DNA from: Methanobacteriota archaeon
GTDB taxonomy: Archaea > Halobacteriota > Methanosarcinia > Methanosarcinales > Methanosarcinaceae
DNA length: 44,772 bases
Assembly: GCA_016841625.1 (NCBI GenBank)
Contig: JAENYU010000009.1
Coordinates: forward strand, 21,109-65,880
Direction: 5' to 3'
The position numbers were made by a program, and so were the translations under genes. How positions within the stretch are numbered: the first letter of the stretch is position 1; every line of letters begins with the position of its first letter. The notes beneath the pieces were generated by a model. The model was not told where the DNA came from. It made no database searches and saw only the letters and a program-made list of their open reading frames with translations. Below are positions 16,677-41,932 of this stretch, one piece after another.

Positions 16677-17390
16677 ATGAAACTCCACTGCCTCCAGCAC
16701 TCGTCCATAAACACCCTCGGCACAATCGAAGAATACGCCAAAACCAGAGGCTTCCCCCTGGAATCTACCCGCTTTTATGAAACCGAAAAGCAACCCACTC
16801 TCGACTCCTTCGATCTCCTGATCATAATGGGCGGGCCCATGGGCATCTATGACTATGCCGAAAACCCCTGGCTGATAGTCGAAAAGCAGTTCATCAAACA
16901 GGTCATCGCAGCGGGCAAACCGGTGCTCGGGATCTGCCTGGGGGCGCAGTTACTTGCAGATGTGCTCGGTGCAAGGGTGTTTGAAAACGGAAACAGAGAA
17001 ATGGGCTGGTTTCCTATCAGGTCGGCCCCGGTGGAGCAGAAAGCGGAATTTCTGGAAGGGCTGCCGGAGGAGATCACAGTCTTCCACTGGCACGGACGGA
17101 CTTTTGACCTGCCGGAAGGGGCAATGCACCTTTTTGAGAGCGAGGGGTACAAAAATCAGGCATTCATCTATGAAAATGGGGTTGTTGCAATACAGTTCCA
17201 CCCTGAAGTACACGAAGAGAGAGTTGAGTCCATGGTCAGCAGGTTTGGGGTGGAGATGGGAGAAGGCCCATATATTCAGAAAAAGGAGGGGATGCTCGGG
17301 CAGGGGGAATATCTTGCCGGGTCGAAGGAATTTATGTTTTCGGTGCTGGATAAGTTTGAAAAGCTGCCCCGGCGGGAAAATATGGAATAA
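16677..17390 (+). CDS. Class I glutamine amidotransferase (GMP synthase-like)
   Basis: 237 residues, cytoplasmic. The triad of class I glutaminases is complete: nucleophile C87 in GICLGAQ, and H175 and E177 in QFHPEVH. The oxyanion region IIMGGPMGIYD is also present. No synthetase domain is fused, so it is a stand-alone amidotransferase-fold protein such as those annotated GMP synthase-like or type 1 glutamine amidotransferase. The true acceptor of ammonia, or whether it is a hydrolase on other gamma-glutamyl compounds, is unknown. AGGT lies 9 bases before the ATG. A weak hairpin follows the gene. Confidence 0.9.
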   Translation: MKLHCLQHSSINTLGTIEEYAKTRGFPLESTRFYETEKQPTLDSFDLLIIMGGPMGIYDYAENPWLIVEKQFIKQVIAAGKPVLGICLGAQLLADVLGARVFENGNREMGWFPIRSAPVEQKAEFLEGLPEEITVFHWHGRTFDLPEGAMHLFESEGYKNQAFIYENGVVAIQFHPEVHEERVESMVSRFGVEMGEGPYIQKKEGMLGQGEYLAGSKEFMFSVLDKFEKLPRRENME

Positions 17391-17419
17391 ATTTCCAGAC
17401 TTTTCTATTTTATTTTAGC

Positions 17420-17445
17420 TCCCGAAGGACCGGGATTATTTTTCA
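17420..17445 (+). terminator. Weak hairpin and T-run after the amidotransferase gene
   Basis: TCCCG (17420-17424) pairs with CGGGA (17431-17435), followed by TTATTTTTC. The stem is short but the T-run is good, and it stands 30 bases after the stop codon. Confidence 0.45.
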
Positions 17446-17595
17446 TCTTCATCTTCGTTTTCATCTTCGTTTTCATCTTCGTTTTCATCTTCGTTTTCAT
17501 TTTCGTTTTCATTTTTCGTTTTCATTTTTCGTTTTCATTTTCATCTTCATTTTCTTTTTTGTTTTCATTTTCGTTTTCGTTTTCTTTTTTATTTT
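17439..17595. repeat. Polypyrimidine microsatellite, TTTTCATCTTCG-type
   Basis: About 155 bases of 6- and 12-base units such as TTTTCATCTTCG and TTTTCATTTTCG, nearly purely pyrimidine on the plus strand. It separates the amidotransferase terminator from the beta-helix gene promoter. Mirror-like pyrimidine tracts can form triplex DNA; this is not shown here. Confidence 0.9.
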
Positions 17596-17636
17596 GACTT
17601 TTTGGGATATGCCACAGGCGGTGTAAAAAGTAAATG

Positions 17637-17644
17637 TTTTATAA
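17637..17644 (+). promoter_or_regulatory. TATA box of the beta-helix membrane gene
   Basis: TTTTATAA stands 53 bases before ATG 17690, which fits a start of transcription near 17668 and a leader of about 20 bases that includes the ribosome site GAGGT at 17682-17686. Confidence 0.5.
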
Positions 17645-17689
17645 GGTTGGGAAGAACACTTCCTGTAAAATAGAAGGCTCTGAGGTAAG

Positions 17690-19627
17690 ATGAAAGGTAA
17701 ATTGGCAGGCCAGGCTTTATCACTTGTTTTTCTCTTATTAATTGTCGCGGCAGCCCCGGCTTCGGGAAAGGTGATAACGGTTGACTGCAACGGGCACGAA
17801 GACTTTTCAACCATATCGGAAGCCGTATCTTATGCCCTTGATGGGGATAAGATTGTTGTTTACCCCGGAAGCTATGAAGATAACGTTAAGGTAGCAAAGT
17901 CCCTGAACATTGCCGCAAAGCATGAATACTCAAAATACCTTGCTCTCAAAGATACAACCATAATCCGGGAGAGCAAAAATGATTCTGTTTTTCACGTCAC
18001 TGCAGATGGAGTGCGCATCAGCGGCTTCTTGCTTATAGTCAATGTCAATCAAAATGCCGGGATATTTCTTGAAGGGGCCAGTAACTGTACCATTACCGAC
18101 AACACAATCTCCGCATACGGGTCGGATGTAAATTGCATAACTCTTGAAAATTCATCACATAATTTCATAGCATATAATAACCTGGACCCTGAAAGCATAG
18201 AGGAAAACCCCTATACATCCGAAAGCAGTACATTGCTTCTGAATTCCACTCATAACCTTCTCCATAAAAACCGGAACATAAAGAACAATGTAATATTGTA
18301 TCGCTCCTCCCACAACAAGATAACAAATAGCGAAAATTACAAAAGCTACATACATCTTGATTACTCGGACAATAACACGCTAAAAGAAAATCTTGTCCGG
18401 AGGAGCAAATGGGACGGGATATGGCTCACCCGCTCGAATAACAATACACTTACCGGCAATACTGTTAGATCCAATAACCTGGAGCCTGTAGGTCCCTTAG
18501 ATCCTGAAGAACAAACTCCGGTTAATTTAGCCGGGATACAGCTTTCACATTCAAAAATGAATATTCTCCGGAATAACAGCGCCCTTTCTAACTGGCAGGA
18601 CGGGATAGGACTTGCGCATTCGGACCGCAACGAACTCTACAATAACACGATGGAGGGTAATTCCGGGTTGGGACTGGTAATGCACAACTCCCGCGAAAAT
18701 ACCGTTGAAAGCAACAGTTTCAAAGGATCTGAAAAGAAGGCAATAGGCATCGAACTGGAGGGTATCCGGGAAAACAAAATATCCAATAACACCGTATCAA
18801 ATTTCAAGTATGGAGTTATATTTGAAGAACCTGTAAACCCATTTGATAAAAGCCTGGTGGAAAATAACTATTTTTCAGATAACGGAAAGGACTTAGAAGT
18901 TGTTCCTCTTGACCTTGCTCTGACTTTACTGCTGGCAGGACTGCTGGGAGGGGCATTTGCGTACAGGGTAAAAGGCAAAGAGTCCACCCCGAAAATTATT
19001 AAACTTTCCCTGGTCCTCATCTCCGGTTTCTTCTTTTCCTTCATTTTAGGGTTCCTTCTGGACTATAGTTATTCAGGGACCAGCCAGATGATTATGTTTA
19101 AGATGACATTAATGTTCCTGGCTTCCATGGCACTTTTCGGGACTTTGTTCTTCATGTCCGCAACGAAAGGTGTATTGGAAAAATGGTATTTTGGAATTCC
19201 TCTAAATGTAAATCTCATATTGATTATTCTATTTTTTATAATTCCTCATTTTCTGGCGGATATGGAAACTCCTGCCTCACTGAAAGCTCTTTTACCGATA
19301 ATTACAGGATCAACGGTCCCCCTATCCCTTTTGCTTCTCTTAACGTTTCCTGCCGTTCTCCGAAAGAAAACGAAAAGAACAATTTTTTCTCTAACACTCC
19401 TGTCTCTTACTCTCCTGTCTGCCCTGACATTTATCTGTATGATATATGCAGAGGTTCACTTTTTGCTTCACGCGGATTATTACACTTTATCGGTAATAAC
19501 GGCAATTATCTGGGCCGTATTAATTCCCCTTACAGGAATTTGCTACTGGGCAATTGCCCTTAATTCAGATGTCATCTCGGAATTTTCCGAACGGCTGGAA
19601 CAGCAGGAACAGAAGGAAATTGGATGA
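17690..19627 (+). CDS. NosD-like beta-helix protein fused to about seven membrane segments
   Basis: 645 residues. A signal peptide (1-26, ending APASG) is followed by a right-handed parallel beta-helix (about 28-400). The helix opens with the usual VDCNGHEDFSTISEAVSYA and VYPGSYEDNVKV, and has many turns of the kind NNTLTGNTV and NTMEGNSGLG. The C-terminal third has about seven hydrophobic helices, for example LALTLLLAGLLGGAFAY, LILIILFFIIPHFLA and ITAIIWAVLIPLTG, joined by short loops. The extracellular helix would sit on a membrane bundle. NosD/CASH-type domains bind carbohydrates or metals; the ligand is unknown here. The start is fixed by GAGGT 4 bases before ATG. The next gene has a similar beta-helix without the bundle. 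Confidence 0.85.
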   Translation: MKGKLAGQALSLVFLLLIVAAAPASGKVITVDCNGHEDFSTISEAVSYALDGDKIVVYPGSYEDNVKVAKSLNIAAKHEYSKYLALKDTTIIRESKNDSVFHVTADGVRISGFLLIVNVNQNAGIFLEGASNCTITDNTISAYGSDVNCITLENSSHNFIAYNNLDPESIEENPYTSESSTLLLNSTHNLLHKNRNIKNNVILYRSSHNKITNSENYKSYIHLDYSDNNTLKENLVRRSKWDGIWLTRSNNNTLTGNTVRSNNLEPVGPLDPEEQTPVNLAGIQLSHSKMNILRNNSALSNWQDGIGLAHSDRNELYNNTMEGNSGLGLVMHNSRENTVESNSFKGSEKKAIGIELEGIRENKISNNTVSNFKYGVIFEEPVNPFDKSLVENNYFSDNGKDLEVVPLDLALTLLLAGLLGGAFAYRVKGKESTPKIIKLSLVLISGFFFSFILGFLLDYSYSGTSQMIMFKMTLMFLASMALFGTLFFMSATKGVLEKWYFGIPLNVNLILIILFFIIPHFLADMETPASLKALLPIITGSTVPLSLLLLLTFPAVLRKKTKRTIFSLTLLSLTLLSALTFICMIYAEVHFLLHADYYTLSVITAIIWAVLIPLTGICYWAIALNSDVISEFSERLEQQEQKEIG

Positions 19628-19904
19628 AAGGATTTAGAAAACAAGCAGAATCTCATCGGTTAGCAAGCAGTACCCATCGGTAGGCCAGCTTTTTATATAC
19701 TTTACTATATTTTGAATGAAATTTCGAAAAAATTTCGATGAAATTTGAAACAGGTCTCTCAGTAAAAATTCCAGAAAAATCTCTCGCTGTTCTTCAGGAC
19801 CTCACTGTTATACTTATATAGAGACTGTCTTAAATTAAGTTATACAGTAGGATGAAGGCTGCAGTCATGTGAAGAATGATGAAACATACGCAGGTGAGGC
19901 AAAG
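19628..19904. other. Intergenic region and promoter of the second beta-helix gene
   Basis: About 275 bases. ACTTATATAGAG at 19812-19823 is a good TATA-like box. A short frame (ATG 19876 to TGA 19908) overlaps the real start and belongs to a duplicated start region described under findings. The words AAATTTCGA and AAATTTCGATGAAATTTGAAA repeat near 19718-19750. Confidence 0.5.
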
Positions 19905-22900
19905 ATGATGAAACATATGCGGGCATGGGCAGTTATCTTATTGCTCTTTTTGATGATTTCGGGGGCAGAGGCTACAGGAAATGCCAGTGGAACTGAAATA
20001 ATTGTTGATGCCAATGGGAAAGGGGACTACAGAACCATCGAAGATGCCATTTACAATGCATTTGATGGCGACACGATCCTCGTTTACCCGGGAACATACG
20101 CCGAGAATTTAATGGTAAAGAAAGACCTGACAATAAAGTCATATTCCGGGAATCCGGAGGACACTGTAATCAGGGCGGCAGACCCGCAGAAAAATGTCTT
20201 TCATGTGACTGTTGACGGTGTAAACATTAGCGGTTTCGGGATAACAGGGGCAGAGGGGAGTTCTTCAACAACAGCCAGCACAGTCGGGATCTATCTCGAA
20301 AGCGTTTACTATACTAAAATTTTTAACAACAATATTGGTTCCTGCAAAAACGGAATCGTGCTTGCGGGCTCCAGGAACAATGTTCTTGCAGGCAATGTTG
20401 TTACGTCCTGTACAGAATACGGGATAAAGCTGGCTTCGTCCCACTTCAACACGCTTAGCAACAACCTGATGTCAGGCAGCCAGTATAACTTTGCGGATTT
20501 TACGGACGAGAGATATGCCTGGGGCTACAATTATGTGGATAAAAGCAACCTTTTGGACGGAAAACCGATTTATTACTTAAACGGGGAATCAGGTACAGTT
20601 ATCGATTCGGGGTCAAACGCAGGATCAATCTATTGCATCAACTGCAAAAACATTTCAATAAAAAATTTACAGTTAGCGAATAATCTGCATGGAATTTATT
20701 TTTTCAATACGGTTGATTCACGTGTAGAAAATGTCAATGTTTCAAACACTTTTCACGGGATTTTTCTCTATGAATCCCGGGGAAATAACCTAGAAAAGAA
20801 CACTTTTTCCGGCAACAGATGGAGCGGGATCTATCTGATGGGTTCTTCTTCAAACACGATAAAAGATAACGCGGTAAACTCAAACGGTTTTCCAGGGATC
20901 GGAATTGAAAGCGATTCTAACAGTAACAAAATTGTCAGCAACAAAGTAACCGGCAATGGATACGGAATAACAATTTCGGGTTCAAGTGGCAATAAACTGG
21001 ATAACAATATTGTAGAGTCCAATAAGTGGGAGAACGTTTACACTTCGGGTTCGAGCACCGGAACTTCCAGTGAAAGTGAGGAAATAAAAAAGAATCAGGA
21101 AGAAGAGCCAAAAACCATTCGCGTTAAACCTGGAAGCTCGATCCAGGAGGCTATCGACTCGGCAAACCCCGGCGACACCATAATAGTAGCCAGCGGGACG
21201 TACAGGGAAAACATTGACGTGGACAGGGAAGTAACCATTGTTTCTGAGTCAGGTAAACCTGAAAAGACCATTATATATCCAGACCCGGGAAAAGGTCCGT
21301 TCATCCTGAAAGAGGGCCTGCTTTTCATGCCAGCTTATGGGTTCTATATAAGCGCCAATAATGTTACCGTGAGCGGGTTCACCATAGAGGACGAAATGAA
21401 AATGTCTGGCATGCAAAGCGTTCCTTATGGAATAGTCGTGGATTATGCACAAAATTGTACAATCTCCGATAATATCATCTCACATACGATATCGGGAATG
21501 ACCCTTTATGATGCGGACAATAATATCATAGAAAAAAATACTCTCTCCAACAATCTTGCCGGAATGCTCCTGAACGGATACTGCGATAGTAACATTATAA
21601 GCTATAACATGGTGGATTCAAACAATGAGTATGGAATAAGGCTAGATGAATGCAGAAATAACATCTTAACTGATAATACTATAAAATCAAACGGCTATGG
21701 TTTATCTCTGTACAGCTCCACAGGAAACACCCTCAAGGGAAATGAACTTCTCAAAAACAGGCAAAATTTCGGAGTCTATGGCTATAATGGAAAATACAGG
21801 AATGATATTGATGCCAGTAATCTCGCGAATGGACAGAAAATATACTATCTGGTGGGTGCCTCAGATGACACAGTTGACCAAAATTCAGAAGCTGGTGTTG
21901 TATACTGCATCGGTTGCAGGAATATTTCTATCAAGAACCTGGAACTGAAGGGAAACGGCGTTTTCCTGTACAATACAGTCGGATCCTTAATCGAAAACAA
22001 TGTCATAACGGACTCAGGAAAGGGAATCTGTCTGGAAGAGTCCCACAATAACAGGATCATCGGAAACAGTGCGAGCTATAACAGCGAAGGAATAACGCTA
22101 GCACTTTCACGAAATAATACGCTGGAAAAAAACACTGCCGACTCGAATGATTTATATGGGATCTCATGCGGGGGGGCAAATAATGTCCTGCTTGACAATA
22201 TCGTTTCAAACAACGGAAACGGAATCAGTGTGCAGGGTAATGAAATCGCCATAATCGGAAACATCGTAAACTCAAATCGAAGATTTGGAATTTCCCTGTA
22301 TGGGTCAGGAAATGAATTGGTGGCCAATGAGTTAGTTTCCAATGGGGAAACCGGAGTTTATTTGAGTGGTTCTGCAAATCATCTGTACCTGAACAATGCC
22401 TCAAAAAACGTAAATGGTATTTTTCTGGTAAAGGCAGAAGACAACATAATCATAGGCAATGATCTGTATTCGAATGATGGGTACGGGGCACAAATAGTAA
22501 CTTCGAGTACCAATAACACTCTGGTAGACAATAAAATAAAATTCAATGGCCTGTACGGGGTGAAGATACAGGAGTCCAAAGGAAACATTCTGTACAATAA
22601 CTTTTTTGAAAACAGTGAGAACGTTCAGCTTATAGAAAGCCCCTTGAATACCTGGAACGCAACACCCTCAATGAGTTCGAATTTGCAGAAAGAAACAAAC
22701 GTGGGAGGAAACTTCTGGGCAGATCCCGATGGAACGGGACACAGCCAAACATTCAGCGATGCAAACCAGGACAGCTATTGTGACCTGCCATATGAAATAG
22801 GTAAGGGAAACGTCGATTCTCTCCCACTTTCAGGTTACAATGAAATATATGATGTGGCTGAACTCCAGAGTACACTCTATAGAAATATACAAGATGATGA

Positions 22901-23024
22901 TTCCCGGAAAGCTACTGAATCTTCAGAAGTTCCCGGTAAGAAAGCCCCTGCTGGTTCCTTACTCCCTGGAATTTGTTTGCTGGGGACATTTATGTTAATC
23001 AAAAAAAGCAGGAAAGAAAACTAA
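19905..23024 (+). CDS. Large secreted double beta-helix (NosD-like) surface protein
   Basis: 1039 residues from ATG 19905. A signal peptide (WAVILLLFLMISGAEA) is followed by two right-handed beta-helix domains. The first opens VDANGKGDYRTIEDAIYNAF. A Ser/Glu-rich linker near 390-410 leads to a second, which opens IRVKPGSSIQEAIDSANPGDT. Both contain dozens of coils of the type N-x-I-x-x-N. A matched pair of inserts (NLLDGKPIYYLNGESG and NLANGQKIYYLVGASD) shows that the halves arose by duplication. The end has KAPAGSLLPGICLLGTFMLIKKSRKEN-like order: a short hydrophobic anchor followed by a basic tail. Ribosome site GGTGAGG lies 5 bases before ATG 19905, so I prefer it to GTG 19869. The role is probably binding of surface carbohydrate; the ligand is unknown. 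Confidence 0.87.
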   Translation: MMKHMRAWAVILLLFLMISGAEATGNASGTEIIVDANGKGDYRTIEDAIYNAFDGDTILVYPGTYAENLMVKKDLTIKSYSGNPEDTVIRAADPQKNVFHVTVDGVNISGFGITGAEGSSSTTASTVGIYLESVYYTKIFNNNIGSCKNGIVLAGSRNNVLAGNVVTSCTEYGIKLASSHFNTLSNNLMSGSQYNFADFTDERYAWGYNYVDKSNLLDGKPIYYLNGESGTVIDSGSNAGSIYCINCKNISIKNLQLANNLHGIYFFNTVDSRVENVNVSNTFHGIFLYESRGNNLEKNTFSGNRWSGIYLMGSSSNTIKDNAVNSNGFPGIGIESDSNSNKIVSNKVTGNGYGITISGSSGNKLDNNIVESNKWENVYTSGSSTGTSSESEEIKKNQEEEPKTIRVKPGSSIQEAIDSANPGDTIIVASGTYRENIDVDREVTIVSESGKPEKTIIYPDPGKGPFILKEGLLFMPAYGFYISANNVTVSGFTIEDEMKMSGMQSVPYGIVVDYAQNCTISDNIISHTISGMTLYDADNNIIEKNTLSNNLAGMLLNGYCDSNIISYNMVDSNNEYGIRLDECRNNILTDNTIKSNGYGLSLYSSTGNTLKGNELLKNRQNFGVYGYNGKYRNDIDASNLANGQKIYYLVGASDDTVDQNSEAGVVYCIGCRNISIKNLELKGNGVFLYNTVGSLIENNVITDSGKGICLEESHNNRIIGNSASYNSEGITLALSRNNTLEKNTADSNDLYGISCGGANNVLLDNIVSNNGNGISVQGNEIAIIGNIVNSNRRFGISLYGSGNELVANELVSNGETGVYLSGSANHLYLNNASKNVNGIFLVKAEDNIIIGNDLYSNDGYGAQIVTSSTNNTLVDNKIKFNGLYGVKIQESKGNILYNNFFENSENVQLIESPLNTWNATPSMSSNLQKETNVGGNFWADPDGTGHSQTFSDANQDSYCDLPYEIGKGNVDSLPLSGYNEIYDVAELQSTLYRNIQDDDSRKATESSEVPGKKAPAGSLLPGICLLGTFMLIKKSRKEN

Positions 23025-23232
23025 AAATTCTGTCGGAGATAGCTATGAAACACCGAATTAATATTTTAGGCTCTTCGCTGTTTCGAGTTTGTAAGTTATA
23101 TTCACTTCCTAAATGTGAGAGCAACATATCTAAAATTTAAAAACATTTGTTGTGCAAAAACACACTCAAGACCAATGTTTATCGCTCTAACATGGTAACT
23201 TTGTAACTAAACAATTATTTGCAACCCCTGCA
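23025..23232. other. Intergenic region bounded by an 11-bp inverted repeat
   Basis: GGCTCTTCGCT (about 23070-23080) and AGCGAAGAGCC (23237-23247) are perfect inverted copies about 160 bases apart. A weaker nested pair lies within (GAGAGCAACAT and ATGTTTATCGCTCT). No gene is seen between them. Confidence 0.55.
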
Positions 23233-23234
23233 AA

Positions 23235-23570
23235 ATAGCGAAGAGCCAGATTTTGGTTCTGCTTGCCTTTTTTGTTGTACAATGTTCAGCGATTGAAAAC
23301 AATGAAAATGACACATCAGAAATTGGCATTCCGGTATTTACGGATAAAGCGGACCAGATCAATCCGGCTATTTACGGGAATTATGTTCTGTGGATGGATT
23401 GGAGAGACGACAACTGGGACATCTACATGTTTGACATTGAATCCGGGACCGAATCGGCAGTGTGTACTGCTCCCGGTCATCAGGAATCTCCCGTTAAGGA
23501 GGGAAGCATAATTTATTGGGCAGATGGGAGGTCCGAACAAAAATACGTTTATCGGTCTTGCACAAACTAA
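23235..23570 (+). pseudogene. Broken beta-propeller (TolB-like) surface-protein gene, 5' fragment
   Basis: The fragment has a signal-like stretch (ILVLLAFFVVQCSA) and one and a half propeller repeats of the kind known from methanosarcinal surface proteins: DQINPAIYGNYVLWMDWRDD, then DIYMFDIESGTESAVCTAPG and the start of another blade ending YWADGRSEQ. The intact family has many more blades. The frame has no ATG: the position where one would be expected reads ATAGCG (23235), and TTG 23253 is the only start-like codon. After DGRSEQ the blade pattern is lost and the frame stops at 23570, against the convergent zinc-ribbon gene. Loss of both start and blades marks it as dead. Confidence 0.7.
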
Positions 23571-23581
23571 GAATCGCGCCT

Positions 23582-24277
23582 TCAATGTCGGTATATCCGG
23601 GGGTCTTCCGTTGCCCATTTCCTCACGGGCATATCGACGGCGTTTATGTGCTCTTCTTTTTCTGCCCTGAAGGACCTGTGCCCGCAGTGCCCGCACTGGT
23701 AGTAGCGGGTTATGGTGAGGTCCGATGTGGACGAGGAGGTCTTCAATTCCTTGATGTCAGGGTCTTTGAATTCGGTGTGGAGGGAGGTTTCCCGGCAGTG
23801 CTTACAGGGGGCCTTGAAGGGGTCTTTGTTTCTTTTTCCTTTCCGGGACTCGATGTTTTCCCGGCTTTCGGAACTGTCTTCACAGCCACAGTATCTACAT
23901 TTCCAGTGCCTGATTACGGAGACATAGTAGTAATCAGGAGTGCTGACTTCTTTTATGTCCGGTTGTTCCCTTTCTTCACAGGCGAACTCTTTTCCGCATT
24001 CCCTGCACCTTGCAGCTCTCACATAATCGGTGCTGAAGAGGAGCTCATGACCGCAGGCTGTGAAGGAGGAAAACAGGATTATGACTGCCAGGGACGCATA
24101 CAGCCTGCCCCCAGGGGAGGGTCCGAACAGGAAAAAGATCTTCTCAATCGAAAGGAGTGACATAATTGCAAGCATGAGACAGAGCATACCGCCAAGTTCC
24201 ACGGCACTTTCCCCGAGGAGCCTGATCAACGGGACTCTTTTTAATAAAGTCCGTTTTCGAATATCTCCTTTGTACAT
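23582..24277 (-). CDS. Membrane protein with two tandem zinc-ribbon modules, function unknown
   Basis: 231 residues from ATG 24277. Two hydrophobic segments (about 28-52 and 58-76: LGGMLCLMLAIMSLL, ASLAVIILFSSF) come before two homologous cytoplasmic or surface modules. Module one has CRECG and CRYCG on either side of PDIKEVSTPDYYYVSVIRHW. Module two has CKHC and CGHCG on either side of PDIKELKTSSSTSDLTITRYY. Each can bind one zinc with four cysteines. Their matching layout shows an internal duplication. ATG 24277 has no ribosome site. The same frame stays open for 79 codons further upstream, so this ATG may be internal; see the next entry. I cannot assign a function. Confidence 0.7.
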   Translation of the reverse strand: MYKGDIRKRTLLKRVPLIRLLGESAVELGGMLCLMLAIMSLLSIEKIFFLFGPSPGGRLYASLAVIILFSSFTACGHELLFSTDYVRAARCRECGKEFACEEREQPDIKEVSTPDYYYVSVIRHWKCRYCGCEDSSESRENIESRKGKRNKDPFKAPCKHCRETSLHTEFKDPDIKELKTSSSTSDLTITRYYQCGHCGHRSFRAEKEEHINAVDMPVRKWATEDPRIYRH

Positions 24278-24652
24278 AAGGGTGTAGCTTTCATCAGTAC
24301 ATCCTGAGGCGGATTCAACGGTGTATTCGGCAGTATTCCAGGCAGAATATTCAGCAGCATACCCGACCTTATGCTCGACAGCAGACCCTGCAACATCTTT
24401 TTCATTATTTTTAGAAACGTATTCACCAGTCTGTTCAAAAGTATATTCATCCGTCTGTTCAGAAGTATATACCTGACCTGCAGCCAGAGAGCCTTCAGCC
24501 CCCTTTTTCTGCTCTTCCTATTCCCTGGTGATTGTACTTCCTGAAAGCGTATTCAAAGCCTCCGAACCTCCATTTTTTCTGCAAAAGGGACAGGAATTCA
24601 GCTTTTTTCCGTTTTCAAAATGATAAAAAAAAGTCCCGGCTGGACAATAATA
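24278..24652 (-). pseudogene. Upstream in-frame extension of the zinc-ribbon gene across a UAG codon
   Basis: Reading upstream from ATG 24277 in the same frame gives 79 codons without a stop and without any ATG, GTG or TTG. They include an in-frame 24-bp repeat (YTSEQTDE, YTFEQTGE). Then a TAG stands at 24518-24520. Beyond it the frame again reads as protein for 44 codons and contains a classic zinc-ribbon start, YYCPAGTFFYHFENGKKLNS followed by CPFC, up to another TAG at 24653-24655 within a TATA-like stretch. So the gene once, or still, began near 24655. Either it is a pseudogene (lost start, amber mutation), or UAG is read as pyrrolysine. The TTG at 24554-24556 is the only start-like codon in this part. 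Confidence 0.6.
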
Positions 24653-25631
24653 CTATATAAAATATATTGCTCGCAAAGGATATAAACTGTACGAAATAAA
24701 TCGACTTCCGGCTTAAGGTAAAGGTAAAGGTAAAGGTAAAGAAAAAGGAAAATGCCACACAGGGGATGAACTGTACAATCAGGGAATTCCGCAGAAGAAT
24801 GAGTTCCACCAACTGCTCAGGATGCCTGCAAGAATAAGCAAAGACACCTGAACATCCCAGGTCCGGGATAAATACAAAGAATGGAAGCATACCCTGGATT
24901 GAGAACTTCGGAAAAGTCTGGAGCCTATAACTAATAACACGCAGTCATTGAGCTTCAAGTCCAAAAATTGGAATCTTGTGGAATTATTGGATTTATTAAC
25001 AATGATAAAATAAGCCAGATTTTGGGCAATTATGGACTTTTCAGACACTCCCGGATTATAGCATTGAACTAACCTTGCATAAATAATATAATCGTTACCA
25101 GTTCGTATTATTGTATCGCTCTGTCTAAATATTACACCTAAGTAAATATAAGATCTAAGAAAACAATCTAAGACTGTAGCTTGAGAGCTACAAACAAAGC
25201 AACAGGCAGAATACAGGACTAACAGGACAAGAATCAAAAAAGTGCAGAACTCAAGATGAAGAAAGTCAGCAATGACTTGGAAGTGGGGAATTACCAGGAA
25301 GCGGCACAAATCCCGCGGGTTGGGGAAAGAAAAAAGCAGTGTACTCCGGTACCTTGCTTTTGAAACCGTGGGGGTCACACCAAAAACAGGAATCTAAGCG
25401 AAAAACGGAAAATCACAGTGTCGCTCCGAGGGGATTTAGGAAAAATACCTGAATCCCTTATCCCATCTTATACAAAATGCTCTTTTTACAGGGTCTTCTT
25501 TTTAAGTAGGTCTCTTCTGTTAAGCCCAGCCTCTTTAACCTCGGTCTATTTTCCCGGCTCTGATTTGAAAGAATGAACTTATCAGGCGCAAAAAATTTCT
25601 GCGAACCCTCATGAAATCCTCCTGACGAGAA
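24653..25631. other. About 1 kb gene-poor region with coding remnants
   Basis: A GGTAAA hexamer is repeated four times at 24717-24741. From about 24746 the plus strand has a frame that reads protein-like (CHTGDELYNQGIPQKNEFHQ, later YKEWKHTLD) but is interrupted by TGA codons. Near 25300-25395 another frame reads GKEKSSVLRYLAFETVGVTP. These look like decayed genes that I cannot name. A 199-codon frame on the minus strand (24779-25378) runs opposite these and has poor composition, so it is not called. Confidence 0.4.
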
Positions 25632-25802: not shown

Positions 25803-25877
25803 TTTATGTTACATGCTAACATGTACCACTATAACATAATTTCCATATATAACATTACAATGGACTGGAGATAAAAA

Positions 25878-26058
25878 ATGTTAGGAATTGATGATCTCCA
25901 GATCTGGATTGCATATGTTCTCTGCTTTTTGAGCGCATTCGGATGCATCATATAATGGTGCCCTTAAGTGGAATGTGGGCGCAGAAGAAAATATTGAAAA
26001 GGAAATTGTCGAATGCCGAAAAGGGATTGAGGGTGTGGAAAAGGAGGCAGGGGTATAA
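25878..26058 (+). pseudogene. Frameshifted symporter small accessory protein
   Basis: ATG 25878, with GGAG at 25867-25870, opens MLGIDDLQIWIAYVLCFLSA, which is the pattern of the small single-membrane-helix proteins encoded just before SSS symporters in methanogens. The frame stops at TAA 25953-25955 after 25 residues. The next frame continues directly with NGALKWNVGAEENIEKEIVE and ends in TAATG, overlapping the symporter start by one base. Removing one A from ATATAATGG would restore IIYGALKWN and a protein of about 59 residues. So there is a one-base insertion, a sequencing error or programmed frameshifting. Confidence 0.65.
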
Positions 26059-27644
26059 TGGCTGTCAACACTCCCGTTTTTGGGGTAATAGTCCTCATCT
26101 ATCTGATGGTGATATTCTACCTCGGATGGCTGGGCTACAGGAAAACAAAGGATATAGACGACTATATGGTAGCAGGGCGGAAAATTCATTCTTACATCCT
26201 CGCCCTTTCATACGGTGCAACATTCATCAGTACGTCTGCAATAGTCGGGTTCGGAGGAGCTGCCGGAGCCCTGGGAATGGGACTTTTGTGGCTCACGTTC
26301 ATGAACGTATTTGTGGGCATATTTGTTGCATTCGTTTTATTCGGGTCAAGGACGAGGCGCATCGGGCGCAACCTCAACGCCGTCACCTTTCCGGAACTGC
26401 TGGGAAAACGTTTCCAGTCAAGGTTCATACAGGGTTTTTCAGGAATCCTTATCGGGCTCTTCATGCCCCTCTATGCTGGGATCGTCCTCATCGGGGCTGC
26501 CAGGTTCCTTGAAACCGCACTCGGGATAAATTATGATATTGCTGTCCTGATCTTTACGATTATAATCGCTGCCTATGTGATAACGGGCGGGCTGATAGCG
26601 GTCATGTACACCGACGCCCTCCAGGGAACCCTCATGTTTGTTGGCATGGGAATTTTAATGGTCCTGACCTACTCGAAACTTGGCGGCGTTGCGGAAGCAC
26701 ACCAGATGCTCACCGACATGGCCCCGCTGGTCCCCGAAGCCCTGGCAAAAGGAGGGCACCTTGGCTGGACTGCAATGCCGGCCTTAGGCTCCCCGATCTG
26801 GTGGACGCTTGTCTCGACCCTTGTCCTTGGGGTCGGGGTAGGCGTGCTTGCCCAGCCCCAGCTCGCAGTCCGGTTCATGACCGTAAAGGATGACAGGGCC
26901 CTGAACAGGGCAGTCCTTGTCGGCGGGCCTTTCATTTTCATGATGACCGGGGTCGCATTTACCGTGGGAGCCCTCTCGAATGCCTACTTCTACAAAACGC
27001 AGGGCTTAATCTCACTCGCTGTTGCAAAAGGAAATACGGACCTGATCATCCCGGAATACATCAACAGCTCAATGCCCGATGTTTTTGTGATGCTTTTCAT
27101 GCTGACCCTACTTGCCGCCGCGATGTCCACGTTGAGCTCCCAGTTCCACACGATGGGGACGGCAATCGGACACGACTTTTACAGGGGGTACATAAAGAAA
27201 GGAGAGTACGGAAAGACCGTGACCGTTACCAAACTGGGAATTGCAATAACCATCCTTGCAAGCGTAATCCTGGCTTACATCCTGCCCATAAGCATTATCG
27301 CAAGGGCAACCGCAATATTCTTCGGACTCTGTGCAGCCGCTTTCCTCCCCATGTATTCAGGCGCCCTTTTCTGGAAACGCATGACAAAGGAAGGAGCAAT
27401 CGCAAGCCTCATCGTCGGGACTTTCAGTAGCCTCTTCTGGCTCACTTTCGTGCACGCATCGGAAGCTGCCCCCCTCGGGATCAGCCAGGCCCTTTTCGGA
27501 AAAACGACTCTGCTTTCCGGCACCTGGACCGTTGTTGACCCGATACTCGTCGCAACTCCCCTTGCCCTGATTGTGGCAGTCGTCGTGAGCCTGGCAACAA
27601 AGCCGCCTTCGGAAGAGCACTTAAAAGCCTGCTACGGCGAGTAA
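26058..27644 (+). CDS. Sodium:solute symporter (SSS family)
   Basis: 528 residues with about 13 membrane helices. Family marks are DYMVAGRKI near residue 35, the SSS signature region GGLIAVMYTDALQGTLMFVG (177-196), and AAAMSTLSSQ, where the Ser/Thr residues serve the Na2 site in known members. The length is normal for the family. It moves an organic solute inward with sodium across the cell membrane; relatives are annotated as proline, pantothenate or acetate carriers, and the substrate cannot be read from the sequence. GGAGG at 26043-26047 precedes ATG 26058, which overlaps the stop of the small accessory frame (TAATG). The pair is probably co-transcribed and translationally coupled. A strong terminator follows. 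Confidence 0.92.
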   Translation: MAVNTPVFGVIVLIYLMVIFYLGWLGYRKTKDIDDYMVAGRKIHSYILALSYGATFISTSAIVGFGGAAGALGMGLLWLTFMNVFVGIFVAFVLFGSRTRRIGRNLNAVTFPELLGKRFQSRFIQGFSGILIGLFMPLYAGIVLIGAARFLETALGINYDIAVLIFTIIIAAYVITGGLIAVMYTDALQGTLMFVGMGILMVLTYSKLGGVAEAHQMLTDMAPLVPEALAKGGHLGWTAMPALGSPIWWTLVSTLVLGVGVGVLAQPQLAVRFMTVKDDRALNRAVLVGGPFIFMMTGVAFTVGALSNAYFYKTQGLISLAVAKGNTDLIIPEYINSSMPDVFVMLFMLTLLAAAMSTLSSQFHTMGTAIGHDFYRGYIKKGEYGKTVTVTKLGIAITILASVILAYILPISIIARATAIFFGLCAAAFLPMYSGALFWKRMTKEGAIASLIVGTFSSLFWLTFVHASEAAPLGISQALFGKTTLLSGTWTVVDPILVATPLALIVAVVVSLATKPPSEEHLKACYGE

Positions 27645-32412: not shown

Positions 32413-32444
32413 GGGACTTTCAAAAGCCCTCAAAGATTGATTAT

Positions 32445-32462
32445 TGGAGTTCCAAAACTCCA
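32445..32462. terminator. Hairpin between convergent genes
   Basis: TGGAGTT (32445-32451) pairs with AACTCCA (32456-32462) around a four-base loop. A weaker GAGGG/CCCTC pair lies at 32411-32431. It stands between the U32 gene and the convergent giant ATPase gene that ends at 32528. Confidence 0.55.
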
Positions 32463-32527
32463 CAAACTTTCTTGCTTCTCGTGTTTAGGCTCAAACATTT
32501 GAATTAAGTTTTTGGGATTCTCGCTAT

Positions 32528-35500
32528 TTAGGAGTCGCTATTGAGTGCTAACAGTGCTTTCAATTGCAGGAAGTGTATTTCATTATATTTTATATGACAG
32601 TTTTTGTCTCTATAACCGTTTTCATATTCCCCATAAATGGTAATGTCGAGTTTAGTATTCACTAAGTTATCAAAATTTATGTAAACTCTCCCTTTTTTAA
32701 GGATTGATGCATGGTAGGAACACAAACACACCTTGTTGGCAGTATGAGTTACCCCCTGTTCTTTGGTTTCTAGTAGTTTAGTAACTTCGGAAAAATTTTC
32801 ATTGGCCCCTTCTTTTTTAAATGTTCTTTCGCAGATCTGGCACTTTCCTTTATACCACATTCTTACCTCTGCGTCTGCAATTTCATCGTCCACATTTGGG
32901 TCTAACCTAGAACTATAACCTCTACTTTCATTATCAGAGCTTGATCTCTCTACACTATGGAAAATTTCTTTTTTTGTCTTTTCTTTGATAGTTTCCTTTT
33001 CTTCAAGTGATATTGGAGTGTTGTCCTCAAGCACTGAAAATGGACTGACTTCAAAATCGTTTTCATATTTAAGAGAAGCTGAATCTCTTAGATGGTACTT
33101 TTCTTCCAATTTCTTCCCAAAATTGGTTCTTTTTGTTGGACTTGTAGTTCTTCCAACGGTAACTGCCTCCTCACCCTCATCATTAGTCGGAGAAACAAAA
33201 TCGTTTTCTCTATCATCATCGAATGATGTTAAACATTGAGTAACAGAATTTATATTGTTTCCATCTCTGATTTGATCACTTGTTTTCTGGATATCATTAT
33301 TATGATTTAGAACACTCATATTGATGGATTGTCCAGTTGTATCAAAAACATTTACCTTTTCAATAGCATTATCTGCTTCTATTGTCACTGTTTCTTCTGT
33401 AGTTTTCTGTCCTTTGACTATAGATGCTTCAGTTGCTTTCAAATCTACAACATCTTCTTTATTGGAAGCAGAAATATCCAATGGACCTGAATTTTCAACA
33501 AAAGTGTCTGAATAAGATAACGTTACTTCCTCTGTCGTTCCTTCTCCATAGATTAAAGAATTATTTTGAGAGTCAGTATCTTCAAAAGAACCTTCATCGA
33601 TTATTCTATTGCTTTTTACTGTTGAATCAGCGTTTTCAAGAACTGGGTAGAGTGAATCAGTTAAATTTTCATCCATTTCATCGTATGAATTGGCTCTTAG
33701 AAGCATTAAGATTATACCCATGAAATTTTGATTGATATTTGGATGCATTTCTTCAAATAATTCGTAAGCCAATGACTTCTGTATTTCGTGGTTATGTACT
33801 TTTACATAAATTATGTTTAAGACTCCATTTTCGATTTCAAGATAACAATTTACACTATCAATGTTTGAATCGTACCTTTTGTGATTCCAGTCAATATACC
33901 TAGAAACACATAGATGATCATAGGTATAAACCTCAATTTCCTGTTTTACATTAAGCCATTTATTAGTATCCAGTTCACGATTTCCAGCTTTAATTCTCGG
34001 CATTAATTTGGAAACGTTTTGCATCTTCTGAGTAAAATTGGAGTGGAGACGCATCTTTAGAGGATCTGGGTGAATTTGCATTTCTTTTTTTATTAATTGA
34101 GTTAAACCTCGAATTTCCAATCTTTCAATTAAGCCTGAATATTTTACATTCAATTTTATAAAATAGTCAGAAAGAGCATCTCCAAACTGCTGACACAATA
34201 TAGGATTATCTTCTAGAATACATGAATCTGCACTCAATAAAAGATTGTTATTATTGCAAAAGATAGGCAATTTCCTCAGTTCTGTAACAAAAATTTCTTC
34301 TGTGTAATCTAGATGCTTATCCAAATATTCCAAACAATTTATAATAATAGATCTGTCATTTTCAGAGGAAACATTCAGATTATCTGGTTCGTATTTTTTG
34401 TTGATCTTTTCAAGCAAACTTTTAACATTGTCTACATTGGGCTCTTCTAATACCCCCAATTTATTCAACAAATTTTCACATTTTGCGACATATTTAGAGT
34501 TTAAATAGCCAAAGTATTCGGTCCCAAATAAAAACTGTAGATCTCTTTTGAAGATTTCAGATGGTTTAAAGTAAAGAGGTTTTCCATTATCTGTATAAAT
34601 TATCTGAAAAGAAGGAAAAGTATTCAACCTAAAAATTTCAACATGATTGATTTTATTATTAAGTAATTCATATATATTTAAAAAATTCATCTTAGTTGTT
34701 AATAGTCTATTATTTTTGCTTGCAGCTTCAATATTATCAATAAGCATAGAAACAGGAATTTGATCAGTTTTATTCAACTTCAATATTTTCAGGAATTCAA
34801 CCTTTATTCCCCTTCTATAATCTTTTTCTTTCAAATCTGCATCATTTATATCAAGATACTTAACGTCATCAAGATGTTCTAAATAAGGCCTCGTATTCTG
34901 TCTACTATTTTGTGTATATAATTCAGAAGGCTTATACAATCTATTGCTTGAATTCGAAGCTGGCAACCATTCTAAATTTGAGAGTGGAGAAAAATCTTCA
35001 ACATTTAAAACAAAATCATCCCAATGTCTATTGATACTGATAAACACCCTTTTCATTTTGTTGATTAACTGACTATTCACTTCTACGTTTGAAATTGACT
35101 CTTTAATGAAATCAACAATTAGATGTGGCTCTACACTTTCTTTAACTCCCAATTCTTTGAATATGTGTTTGTATTTGTTCATATCAAAATAAGGATATAG
35201 ATAATCTTCCCCAAAGATCTCATCCACCAATTCAGACTTAATAAATAAATTTTTGCATCTCGGGTAATGGAAGTCTCCATCCTGGCAGTACACGATTTTT
35301 GAATTAACCAATGTATTTTTGATAGAATGAAATAAATTGTTCTCTTCAAGTTTTGCAAAACGGGTGTAAAGTTCTTTGAATAGGTTACGCTTCACTTCTT
35401 TATTTATATTGTTATTAGCAAATATAACTTTAAAATAATTGACTATAAAAGTTTCATAGTCCAGCAATTTGAGGTTAAAAATGCCTATAAGAACTTTTTC

Positions 35501-38500
35501 TTTAAAACCAGCAACTTTCGATATTACAGATTCGTCCAGTATCTCATCAATCTTTATGTCTTGAGGAAGTGGATAATCTCCGTGTAGTAATTTGTTTTCT
35601 AATGTAGTCGGATTTCCACTATTATTACTAAATATTTTCAATTTATGAATCGTACTAAGATTTTCATTATTTAATTCAGCTTTTTTTTCTAAAATTAATC
35701 TATACAAAATTTCAAGATAATGTTTATTCAATACAAAATTGCGTTTTCCTACATCATCTATTACGTACTCAAGGATATTTTTGAGGTTAACTACTTTGAC
35801 AAGATCATACTTACGAGCCACATTTTCCACTTCAGTTTGCATGATCTCTAATCCATGCATTGAAGCGAACTCTTTTTCAGCAGAAGTAGCATATAAGTAA
35901 ATGAATTCATTGTAAGGATAGTAATAATTATTATTGTTACAATATATTAATTTAGTTTTTTTGAGGACCAGATTAATCTCCTTTAGACGTGTAGATTTTC
36001 CAATTTTGGGATAGTACTCATTTAACTCTTTTATTAAATCCAGCTTTCTGCCCGTGTCTATTAAATTATTTTCGAAAATACTTATAAAATAATTTTTAAC
36101 AAACACGTCAAAAGTTAGATCCTCAACCCCGAAATGATCCTTAAGAATTTTTTCTTTAAAAGAGGGCACTGAACGGATCAACTTTACATCCAATACTTTA
36201 GCCATTCCAAATCTATCATTGTAGCTACTTTTTAGGAATACCTTTTTTTCATTATTTTCCAGACAACACAAATTTGATTCAACGTCTACAAAAATGGGTA
36301 GTTTTCTAATCCTATTTTTCAGACCATTCTCAGACAACTGTATGGAATTTTCCAATATTATTTTGTATAACAATACAAGAAACTCCACTTCGAATTTTTC
36401 TTCATTTTTAGCGGATATTTCCACGAACTCAACAATATTTTTTAACTTCAAGCGGTTATAAGAAGTATATTTTTTGATTTCATCTAGTATATCAGGATCC
36501 AGAGACTCGATTTTATACCGTGCAGCAAACTTCTTTTCTGAAGTTGAATCTAAATTTAAAACAAATACTTCATTGTTTTTCCACGGATATAGCAAATTAT
36601 TTGAACTGAGAATTATCGGTAATTTTTCAAAATCTATATAAGAAGATCCTATGGAGTTATATTGCTTATCTTTTGGACCATATATTTCATTTTTATGTTT
36701 TATGTATCCTTTATTTTTGAATTTGCCCGAATTTTTCAAATATAAATCTAAGAAATCAATCACAGAAATGAGTTTTTCTTTGGTATTCAGATAAGCTACT
36801 GAATCCTCAAGCTTTACAGGAAAATTGCTAGTCTCAAAATCTTTTAATATCTTTGCTACAAGATCAAAATCCGAAAATTTTTTAAAAATTCGTAGAGTAT
36901 TTGAGAGAAGGTACTCAAATTCATTTAAAATGTCACTATCAATTTCGGGTAGATCAAAGTCCGACTTGAAAGGTAAAATTTCATCAGGAAGTGTATAAAA
37001 TTTGCAGACCTCTGCATTAATCAATCTACCTTTATTGGTAAGGAATATATTGAGGCTGCTTATTTCGCTTTTACGTCTTTTCACGTCTTCTCTCTTGTAT
37101 TCAAGGTAGTGAAATATACTTTTAAGTTCCTCTTTACTACTAAAAAATGATTTCTCCAGTTCAACATCATCCGGAATACTTTTAAGTTCATTAAGTAGAT
37201 CACTTAGGCCAAATTCTTTCATACCCAATTCTTTAAACAAAGGTAAAAAATTAAGATCCTCTTGAGGGACTACTAAGAAATTAACTTTACGTAGAAATGG
37301 AAGTAAATATTTTTCTTCAGTGTACTTTACTTTATTAGCAGAAAGCCATTTTCCCTGTAAGAAAATAATATTGGACCTTGAGGTCTTCAATAAACTGAGA
37401 TAATTTTCAGAATATTTTTTGAAAAATGTATTATCCTTGATTAAAAACGAACTAAGTAGGTTATAGAAAGATGTCTTAGGAAGATCTTTTTTTAGGTCCT
37501 CCGTAATAGACATAAGCATATCAGAAACAAAACTAAATATTTTAAGGTTGTATTTTCCTCTTAAGTCATCCTTCTCCTTGATTATATGTTTTCTACTGGT
37601 ATCCGGCCAGAAATCACAGTTTAAATCAAACCGGCATCCTATGTAATCCGAAGTAGGAAAGGTACAAAAAATGCGCCCGTTTTTAAGAGATTCTTTATTT
37701 ACGGTAATGGAAAGTAAAAGCGGTTTTTTTCGCGCAACCTTACACTTGTATTCTTCTGTAAAATATTTATCTATATTTTGAGTATAGACCGAAAAAGGAA
37801 GAATCTTTTTAGAATTATATGAATTAGTTACGATTATTGTTCGTTCTTCTTTAATTATTTCATCTGGTGAAACACTTATATTTTCTAGTATCTTCTTTTT
37901 TATTTCGATTTTCTGTTTAAGTTTTCCGTTGTCTAGAATTTCGATTGTAGTAACATTATTTAAAAAATGTATATCCTTATAAATAGAATCTATGGTTTCC
38001 TCTTGAAAATCCAATAAGTTTTCTTCAGTAAGCGTAACAGCATCAATTTTGTTCCCAGAATCAGTCGATGTTTTCCTCCAAAAAAATTCAAACTCTGTTA
38101 TATTTATATCCATATAACGAGGGTTTTCATAAGGAATCCAATCCAATGTACTTAACTCGAACTTCTTAGATTTTCCTTTTGAATGTATTTTTAAATCATC
38201 GCATATCTTGAAAACTGAAGTAAATCCTATTCCAAATCTTCCTGTACTATTTGGATCATTCTCCTTATTCCCAGAAGCTATCTCCTCTATTTTTTCCCAA
38301 TCATTATTATTAAAGGAAGTATTATTTCTCAAAATGAGCATTTCGTCTCTAAAATCTATAATTATTTTAACGCTTTCTCCTCTTGAAGAATCATCCGAAT
38401 TTTGAATAAGTTCTTTTATAAGATATACAAAACCTGAATAAGCAACAAGATTTTGTTTGATCTGGTTATGAATATTAGTCCTGTACCTAGTAGCTTCATT

Positions 38501-38524
38501 GCGTAGAAGTTTACCTTCTGACAT
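32528..38524 (-). CDS. Giant sacsin/Hsp90-like (GHKL) ATPase protein with C-terminal zinc finger
   Basis: 1998 residues, no signal peptide or membrane helix. Residues 1-200 carry a GHKL ATPase of the sacsin type: E38 and N42 in KELIQNSDD (N box) and STGRFGIGFTSVF (93-105, lid and G2 box). The G1 box reads ILRNNTSF where sacsins usually have a HNG-type motif, so it is degenerate. The middle (about 350-1550) has at least two long related modules, seen in FGVEDLTFDVFVKNYFISIF and FNLKLLDYETFIVNYFKVIF, each followed by a KELN/KELY helix and an IYC/VYC strand. Residues 1600-1880 are acidic and Ser/Thr-rich. A zinc finger follows with C1895, C1898, C1933, C1935 and H1938 (CQIC, CLCSYH), akin to a degenerate HNH-like finger. 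ATG 38524 overlaps the helicase gene end by 14 bases; GGAGG lies 8 bases upstream. The DNA is far richer in A+T than its neighbours. Proposed role: effector or regulator of a defence system. Confidence 0.75.
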   Translation of the reverse strand: MSEGKLLRNEATRYRTNIHNQIKQNLVAYSGFVYLIKELIQNSDDSSRGESVKIIIDFRDEMLILRNNTSFNNNDWEKIEEIASGNKENDPNSTGRFGIGFTSVFKICDDLKIHSKGKSKKFELSTLDWIPYENPRYMDINITEFEFFWRKTSTDSGNKIDAVTLTEENLLDFQEETIDSIYKDIHFLNNVTTIEILDNGKLKQKIEIKKKILENISVSPDEIIKEERTIIVTNSYNSKKILPFSVYTQNIDKYFTEEYKCKVARKKPLLLSITVNKESLKNGRIFCTFPTSDYIGCRFDLNCDFWPDTSRKHIIKEKDDLRGKYNLKIFSFVSDMLMSITEDLKKDLPKTSFYNLLSSFLIKDNTFFKKYSENYLSLLKTSRSNIIFLQGKWLSANKVKYTEEKYLLPFLRKVNFLVVPQEDLNFLPLFKELGMKEFGLSDLLNELKSIPDDVELEKSFFSSKEELKSIFHYLEYKREDVKRRKSEISSLNIFLTNKGRLINAEVCKFYTLPDEILPFKSDFDLPEIDSDILNEFEYLLSNTLRIFKKFSDFDLVAKILKDFETSNFPVKLEDSVAYLNTKEKLISVIDFLDLYLKNSGKFKNKGYIKHKNEIYGPKDKQYNSIGSSYIDFEKLPIILSSNNLLYPWKNNEVFVLNLDSTSEKKFAARYKIESLDPDILDEIKKYTSYNRLKLKNIVEFVEISAKNEEKFEVEFLVLLYKIILENSIQLSENGLKNRIRKLPIFVDVESNLCCLENNEKKVFLKSSYNDRFGMAKVLDVKLIRSVPSFKEKILKDHFGVEDLTFDVFVKNYFISIFENNLIDTGRKLDLIKELNEYYPKIGKSTRLKEINLVLKKTKLIYCNNNNYYYPYNEFIYLYATSAEKEFASMHGLEIMQTEVENVARKYDLVKVVNLKNILEYVIDDVGKRNFVLNKHYLEILYRLILEKKAELNNENLSTIHKLKIFSNNSGNPTTLENKLLHGDYPLPQDIKIDEILDESVISKVAGFKEKVLIGIFNLKLLDYETFIVNYFKVIFANNNINKEVKRNLFKELYTRFAKLEENNLFHSIKNTLVNSKIVYCQDGDFHYPRCKNLFIKSELVDEIFGEDYLYPYFDMNKYKHIFKELGVKESVEPHLIVDFIKESISNVEVNSQLINKMKRVFISINRHWDDFVLNVEDFSPLSNLEWLPASNSSNRLYKPSELYTQNSRQNTRPYLEHLDDVKYLDINDADLKEKDYRRGIKVEFLKILKLNKTDQIPVSMLIDNIEAASKNNRLLTTKMNFLNIYELLNNKINHVEIFRLNTFPSFQIIYTDNGKPLYFKPSEIFKRDLQFLFGTEYFGYLNSKYVAKCENLLNKLGVLEEPNVDNVKSLLEKINKKYEPDNLNVSSENDRSIIINCLEYLDKHLDYTEEIFVTELRKLPIFCNNNNLLLSADSCILEDNPILCQQFGDALSDYFIKLNVKYSGLIERLEIRGLTQLIKKEMQIHPDPLKMRLHSNFTQKMQNVSKLMPRIKAGNRELDTNKWLNVKQEIEVYTYDHLCVSRYIDWNHKRYDSNIDSVNCYLEIENGVLNIIYVKVHNHEIQKSLAYELFEEMHPNINQNFMGIILMLLRANSYDEMDENLTDSLYPVLENADSTVKSNRIIDEGSFEDTDSQNNSLIYGEGTTEEVTLSYSDTFVENSGPLDISASNKEDVVDLKATEASIVKGQKTTEETVTIEADNAIEKVNVFDTTGQSINMSVLNHNNDIQKTSDQIRDGNNINSVTQCLTSFDDDRENDFVSPTNDEGEEAVTVGRTTSPTKRTNFGKKLEEKYHLRDSASLKYENDFEVSPFSVLEDNTPISLEEKETIKEKTKKEIFHSVERSSSDNESRGYSSRLDPNVDDEIADAEVRMWYKGKCQICERTFKKEGANENFSEVTKLLETKEQGVTHTANKVCLCSYHASILKKGRVYINFDNLVNTKLDITIYGEYENGYRDKNCHIKYNEIHFLQLKALLALNSDS

Positions 38525-41500: not shown

Positions 41501-41576
41501 GCTTCTCGCATATTACACCTACTCGATCAGTATTAACTAGTCTTACAACTTCTCCAAGTTTGAATTTTGGCATCAT
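38511..41576 (-). CDS. SNF2/RapA-type superfamily 2 helicase
   Basis: 1021 residues, cytoplasmic. A short N-terminal SH3-like part (LGEVVRLVNTDRVGVI) is followed by a full SNF2-type motor: ADEVGVGKTIEAG with GVGKT 129-133 (Walker A), DEAHH 231-235 (Walker B), SATPLQ 261-266, SSDVGGEGLDMQ near 570-581 and QRIGRLDRYGQ 600-610 (arginine fingers). The order and spacing resemble RapA/HepA and DrmD of DISARM. The last about 380 residues include a charged coiled-coil region (KKKQELELFDKERSKF, TIRKLNNDPDKN) and have no domain I can name. No nuclease motif is visible. It is the first gene of a two-gene unit: its stop codon lies inside the start of the giant ATPase gene. It probably moves on DNA, or on protein-DNA complexes, using ATP. 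Confidence 0.85.
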   Translation of the reverse strand: MMPKFKLGEVVRLVNTDRVGVICEKPKNINGDIYYVLFIGDSHKTYSEESLEPAKAKKADVITTLQKRNFAYLKDFTSYLTYIKVERPLSNNLYSFLSSRTEFQVHQFKPLLKYLGSPYQRLLIADEVGVGKTIEAGIVYTELLSRHNLKNILVVCPSSLRYKWQREFKKRFNEDFAIIDSRIMKLFFRKYEKYPNGVSLKGIVSIQSLRSDEILKELERLQIPWDLIIIDEAHHMRNEGTKSNELGKILSLSSEGMLLLSATPLQLGNKDLFNLFNIMLPEEFDNFSTFEEQVKPNEHINLALMKISKKYSPRSILESLQNVEATSQRERFLSNPNYNFCVDLLNLKYDLGNDDVVNLQRKLSELNVLSHIYTRTKKNEISMEFPLREPITIKVEFSNIEREFYNRVSDLFLNMHPGCPAGFLLQMPCRQVASCIPATISYLKDICYSRELKLDIEDFDDESFLDQKLKLSDSDLPKIKELILFAENNLNQQDSKTREFIKAITKVLDNGEVKKVIIFSFFKRTLKHLELLLKECGFYIARIDGDVPFIEREYIIENFSKPDGYQILLSSDVGGEGLDMQFCNCIFNYDLPWNPMKIEQRIGRLDRYGQTSSKIHIYNFSIENTIESDIFLRLCNRIGVFEQYVGELEPILGSEIKQLTTEIFNTKLTPEQQKERADKIALVIEKKKQELELFDKERSKFIGQDNYFTEQVSDIMKNEKFITSSEIINLVSSFIDEKYPKSKLIPSTKEKEIYKLKLDPEFQNFIKDYLQKKGQNSEFMERFMDLVTQDSFQITFDYRVANSNSSIEFITFRHPLIKSIIQNYKNEDKLKNACCITWQDVSLEEGITEQNYLFFIYLLEISAFTKSLIFVPVVVDIHFHIVNREYSEKLFHILKNSDDLLEYTEISSEHIKVCEEVSENYVISIKKQKEIDLKEANESLINDRLSSLQQTFEIKIQTINETIRKLNNDPDKNTEKILRMKGSQKLNLMRNFENKRVGLEANKRVIVSHELISGGYLNVRR

Positions 41577-41932
41577 GTAATTAAATCCCTAACTAATTGA
41601 TTATTTAGAAAAACTCAATAATTGTTATAAGTAATATTCATTTTTATATAGATAACTTGTGAAACATTAAGCAAAAGAACAATAGAAGATTTTGAATAAT
41701 CTCTATTTTTTAAAAGATCCTCATAAAATATTTAAAAAGATTTATTTGGCAAGCCGGCCTTACGCCAGGAGGTCGGAACAACGGGAGAGGGGGAATTCCA
41801 GTTGAACAGGTCTGAACTCAAGCTTTCAAGAAGGACGCATTTGTTAATCCCAAAATCAGAAGGCTGCATGAAAATACCTATTTATCCCCCGAACCCAATT
41901 TCTTAAAGGGAAGATCAACCGGGGTCTAATTT
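41577..41932. other. Divergent region between helicase and ABC genes
   Basis: About 355 bases. The part next to the helicase is very A+T-rich and holds its promoter. The part next to the ABC gene is G+C-richer (GCCGGCCTTACGCCAGGAGG near 41755-41774) with no clear TATA box. The composition changes between about 41700 and 41760, and this may mark one edge of the acquired segment. GGGGT at 41921-41925 serves the TTG start of the ABC gene. Confidence 0.5.
41641..41650 (-). promoter_or_regulatory. TATA box of the helicase-ATPase unit
   Basis: On the minus strand TATATAAAAA stands 65 bases before ATG 41576. Transcription would begin near 41616 and give a leader of about 40 bases. This is the only strong box before the two-gene unit. 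Confidence 0.6.

Follow-up and report, generated by a model that had tools for sequence, protein, structure and literature searches.

A one-base frame break in a symporter small accessory protein gene of a Methanosarcinaceae archaeon

The accessory gene and the adjoining symporter gene

In this work, a stretch of 44,772 nucleotides was analysed, here called the window, which is located on contig C53 of a draft genome of 3.76 Mb (63 contigs, 99.68% complete). A gene for a symporter small accessory protein, divided between two reading frames, lies in it directly ahead of an intact gene for a sodium:solute symporter (SSF). The features of the locus are as follows.

25867-25870, forward strand: GGAG, likely ribosome-binding site of the accessory gene, read from the sequence and aligned also in G001, KYL-1 and DH2
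25878-25955, forward strand: front half of the accessory gene, cut short to an ORF of 25 codons with TAA as its stop
25951-25957, forward strand: break point, a net one-base length difference in alignments with the nearest homologous copies (G001, KYL-1 and DH2)
25957-26058, forward strand: back half in the next frame, with the end of the membrane segment (GALKWN) and a charged tail, its stop overlapping the symporter start (TAATG)
26042-26047, forward strand: AGGAGG, likely the symporter's own ribosome-binding site, read from the sequence inside the accessory tail
26058-27644, forward strand: intact sodium:solute symporter (SSF), 528 aa (PF00474, 217.2 bits; TIGR00813, 216.7 bits, cut-off 184)

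The ORF of the front half runs from the ATG at 25878 to the TAA at 25953-25955 and encodes the peptide MLGIDDLQIWIAYVLCFLSAFGCII, while the back half (GALKWNVGAEENIEKEIV...) is read in the frame from 25957 to the TAA at 26056-26058, in a register one base further on. Against the NF045580 profile (symporter small accessory protein, symport_access), the front half alone scores 43.5 bits (cut-off 35), and joining both halves by X raises the score to 53.1 bits (profile positions 1-32 of 33). The corresponding stretch of genome G001, from the same genus, is a single open frame that aligns along both halves of the window gene. Thus, the two halves belong together and did not meet by chance. The initial annotation had described a one-base frameshift in a symporter small accessory protein, with front and back halves in two frames and a back half ending in TAATG at the symporter start, and the ORFs, the NF045580 scores and the G001 alignment bear out this description; the final TAA lies at 26056-26058 and the symporter ATG at 26058, and the front half extends slightly past the part quoted there, to ...AFGCII.

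The window copy is like the NF045580 family in its start, its GIDD motif, its membrane segment, its place directly upstream of the adjoining SSF symporter (PF00474, 26058-27644) and the stop/start overlap. It differs from the family in two respects, namely that its frame is broken by TAA after codon 25 instead of running uninterrupted along the 33-position profile, and that Leu stands at the otherwise invariant Pro7. The accessory protein may be a partner of the symporter, as the family name and the gene neighbourhood, the sole grounds found, suggest. The literature search returned no paper with the phrase 'symporter small accessory protein', and no title or shown abstract that treated the NF045580 family. 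The letters TATAATGG are common to the break site (25951-25958) and the symporter start (26054-26061), probably by chance.

Homologous loci, conserved residues and substitution rates

The closest homologous locus, L005 in G001, has the same gene order and overlap, and its symporter is identical to that of the window at 516 of 528 positions. Its accessory gene, in contrast to the window copy, is whole, with 59 codons in one open frame and a TAATG overlap with the symporter, and has Tyr at the variable position 5. Three other genomes were compared within the genus: G001 has the homologous copy, G002 has the paralogue only and G003 is without a close copy. The nearest named symporter matches belong to Methanosarcina sp. 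KYL-1 and DH2, the best segment of these matches being 88% identical. In the window genome itself, an intact accessory paralogue (L088) was found on contig C56, adjoining a paralogous symporter of 72% identity; the TAA counted within the C56 match is that gene's own end, beyond which the match extends. In the wider surroundings, for the stretches 17360-25100 and 32413-41952 of the window (about 7.7 and 9.5 kb), the corresponding 80 kb of G001 gave no match, which looks like an insertion in the window genome or a loss from G001.

By profile search, an accessory match was obtained in 56 of the 57 symporter loci of named genomes, each stop-free and covering at least 30 of 32 profile positions; the sole locus without a match (L062) is cut at a contig end. 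In L059 the match is found on the downstream side of the symporter and in L055 inside the joined match range, and the weakest one, 22.7 bits, belongs to L065. These counts rest on the profile and not on a simple text pattern, which missed the accessory gene in 13 of the 57 loci; the profile built from the pattern hits recovered 12 of the 13. Two MAGs labelled Lentisphaeria and Verrucomicrobia (L065 and L070) also carry a symporter with an accessory match upstream, at 22.7 (weak) and 44.5 bits, respectively. In the phylum, 151 of 392 genomes have a family match; among the matches listed, which do not include the window copy, none has an internal stop and all span at least 31 of 33 positions, and a further broken copy could occur among the phylum matches beyond those listed. 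A shifted accessory copy was found in none of the 56 loci with a match and not among the phylum matches listed, so that, of all copies examined, a single one has the frame shift. According to the initial annotation, recoding would be supported by the same shift in several species; none of the matched loci showed it.

Position 7 is proline in all 101 full ungapped accessory matches from two collections, which exclude the window copy and may share species, so that the matches are not independent; the window copy has leucine there. Five matches were left out of the 101 as not full, namely three near-full copies, which also carry Pro at this position, and two short secondary fragments. A pattern search of position 7, which required merely C or T as the first base of that codon, covered 111 family genomes, 89 of them with a match, and a leucine codon occurred only in the window copy among the matches listed; three matches with 3 mismatches had a serine codon and look like chance. 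The break itself falls at the Tyr26-Gly27 pair, of which Tyr26 is kept in 100 and Gly27 in 101 of the 101 full matches; Trp31 is kept in 100 of 101.

Compared with G001, the symporter has a dN of 0.013 and a dS of 0.36 and is therefore under strong selection. The accessory front half has a dN of 0.052 and a dS of 0.068. The back half has 18 differences in 99 bases (dN 0.125, dS 0.64) and no further stop; it is not visibly decayed, and a real break must therefore be recent. The accessory gene has 11 nonsynonymous and 9 synonymous codons vs. 12 and 108 in the symporter (p = 1.5e-5), a contrast that does not prove relaxed selection because the tail of the family varies among relatives. When the changes were polarised with KYL-1 as the outgroup, 7 nonsynonymous and 3 synonymous changes were assigned to the window branch and 3 and 6 to the G001 branch (p = 0.18, not significant), a count that is too small to decide and that includes a weak alignment of the KYL-1 tail. 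The 9-base gap in this tail was set 6 columns earlier in the polarised count than in the alignment of the nearest copies; judged by eye, moving it would give the window branch about one more synonymous change; this lends nothing to the pseudogene reading and leaves the conclusions unchanged.

Mutation, recoding or sequence error

The initial annotation had offered three readings of the break, a true mutation, an error and a regulated shift. A programmed frameshift, in which a ribosomal shift at the stop codon would yield the full-length protein in regulated amounts, needs a site for tRNA re-pairing, often with the help of an RNA structure, and should be conserved. The back half is indeed open through to the symporter start, and a +1 shift at the stop would put Asn at position 26, where the family has Tyr and where Asn is natural in one copy (L071; 1 of 101). 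However, no slippery site that would allow tRNA re-pairing was seen at the break, where AUA precedes UAA; judging from these codons, a tRNA on AUA in the P-site would find a poor re-pairing match in the +1 codon UAU. Three stretches of the flanking RNA fold no better than their shuffles (z of -1.00, -0.59 and -0.30, pseudoknots being outside the model), and no relative in the loci examined is shifted. A 2021 review gives one case, a -1 frameshift in Saccharolobus solfataricus, as the only programmed frameshift so far reported in archaea, and another passage of it mentions frameshift reports in archaeal viruses (PMC8211752). This case, the alpha-fucosidase gene, is like the window gene in being divided between two frames with relatives that are largely whole, and it is described there with a slippery heptamer, rare codons and a putative stem-loop (PMC8211752); in the window gene, unlike in the alpha-fucosidase case, neither a re-pairing site nor a fold beyond the shuffles was found. 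We therefore regard a programmed frameshift as highly improbable, and we give equally little credence to its more specific form, in which a recently evolved, species-specific +1 shift at the UAA would set the amount of the full-length accessory protein and, via the stop/start overlap, that of the symporter. Two further candidates were rejected. Reading of the stop codon as pyrrolysine does not apply to a TAA, which is not TAG, with the back half in another frame. Re-initiation at the ATG that overlaps the TAA (25955-25957) would follow a third frame, whose ORF (25943-26512) crosses the symporter start out of frame, so that it would leave the accessory protein unrestored and bring no ribosomes to the symporter.

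It is also very unlikely, if slightly less so, that the front half works by itself, as a shortened partner protein of 25 residues: it retains most of the membrane segment and exceeds the NF045580 cut-off alone, but it is without Gly27 (kept in all 101 matches) and Trp31 (kept in 100 of them) and carries the leucine in place of Pro7. A sequencing or assembly error, with the gene whole in the organism and one wrong base in the draft, is a more serious alternative, though still an unlikely one. It would agree with the draft state of the 63-contig assembly, with both frames being otherwise open and with a second one-base frameshift near 1171 of the window. On the other hand, neither of the two sites is a homopolymer, and the proline-7 change goes beyond what a single indel error would explain. 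Frameshift breaks also look uncommon in this draft genome: when the comparison was limited to G001 ORFs that reach 100 aa and have a hit with 70% identity or more, a test for which the accessory gene is too short, 7 of 102 were split on C53, five of them in or next to a repetitive stretch at about 65.5-67 kb, and 2 of 107 on C56. These counts are rough, since the ORFs were found mechanically and include antisense shadows. Under looser limits (at least 60 aa and at least 60% identity), 13 of 234 were split on C53 and 10 of 247 in the reverse direction; six of these 13 fall within or beside the repetitive stretch, two are the accessory break site read antisense, and in the split ORF at C53:112339 the aligned difference is apparently just ahead of the start codon. 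The gene near 1171 is a second candidate broken gene, in which the 410-codon gene of G001 is split at about 875-1962 of the window by a one-base frameshift outside a homopolymer, and Pfam gave no match for its 307-aa back part. The repetitive stretch at the right window edge and beyond (about 65500-67000 on C53 of the window genome, G000) has repeats whose alignment with G001 falls into numerous registers and differing frames.

We consider it probable that the window carries a lineage-specific broken accessory copy, an early pseudogene that arose by an ordinary one-base mutation. Of the three readings named above, the true mutation is thus the best supported, because the shift was seen once among the relatives examined and is accompanied by a second change at an invariant residue; the error is retained as the lesser possibility, and no support was found for the regulated shift. 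That the broken copy also has the proline-7 change speaks for a real loss, and the break has been there too briefly for clear decay to show. Observed directly were the break and the lack of it in the relatives examined, the change at proline 7, the conservation of the symporter and the intact paralogue; a loss of function, an independent start of the symporter and a replacement by the paralogue are inferred.

Probable translation of the symporter and a possible role of the paralogue

We hypothesize that, in the ancestral state, an NF045580 accessory protein with one membrane segment was translated just ahead of an SSF symporter whose gene it overlapped. A one-base length change at the conserved Tyr-Gly codons would have shifted the frame for the last stretch of the membrane segment and for the tail, and translation would now end after 25 residues with a product without the YG...WN end. 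The symporter would still be made, most likely from its own ribosome-binding site. The TAA of the broken accessory ORF lies 102 bases upstream of the symporter start, whereas the AGGAGG sits 10 bases ahead of the ATG, and GGAGG occurs within 25 bases upstream of the symporter in 6 of 10 relatives that we picked, so that an independent start of the symporter is plausible and its coupling to the accessory gene need not be the sole route to the symporter start. The initial annotation had held that coupling would be kept if ribosomes shifted; the TAATG overlap agrees with this, but with an AGGAGG of the symporter's own at 26042-26047 the coupling is perhaps unneeded. The symporter would then either work without a partner or use the intact accessory protein from the paralogous locus, and the accessory gene on C56 could serve both symporters. 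By itself, the finding is a minor one, one more case of a known small gene family in which a single lineage has a broken copy. Provided that the break is real, however, the strain is a natural test of whether such archaeal symporters need their small partner.
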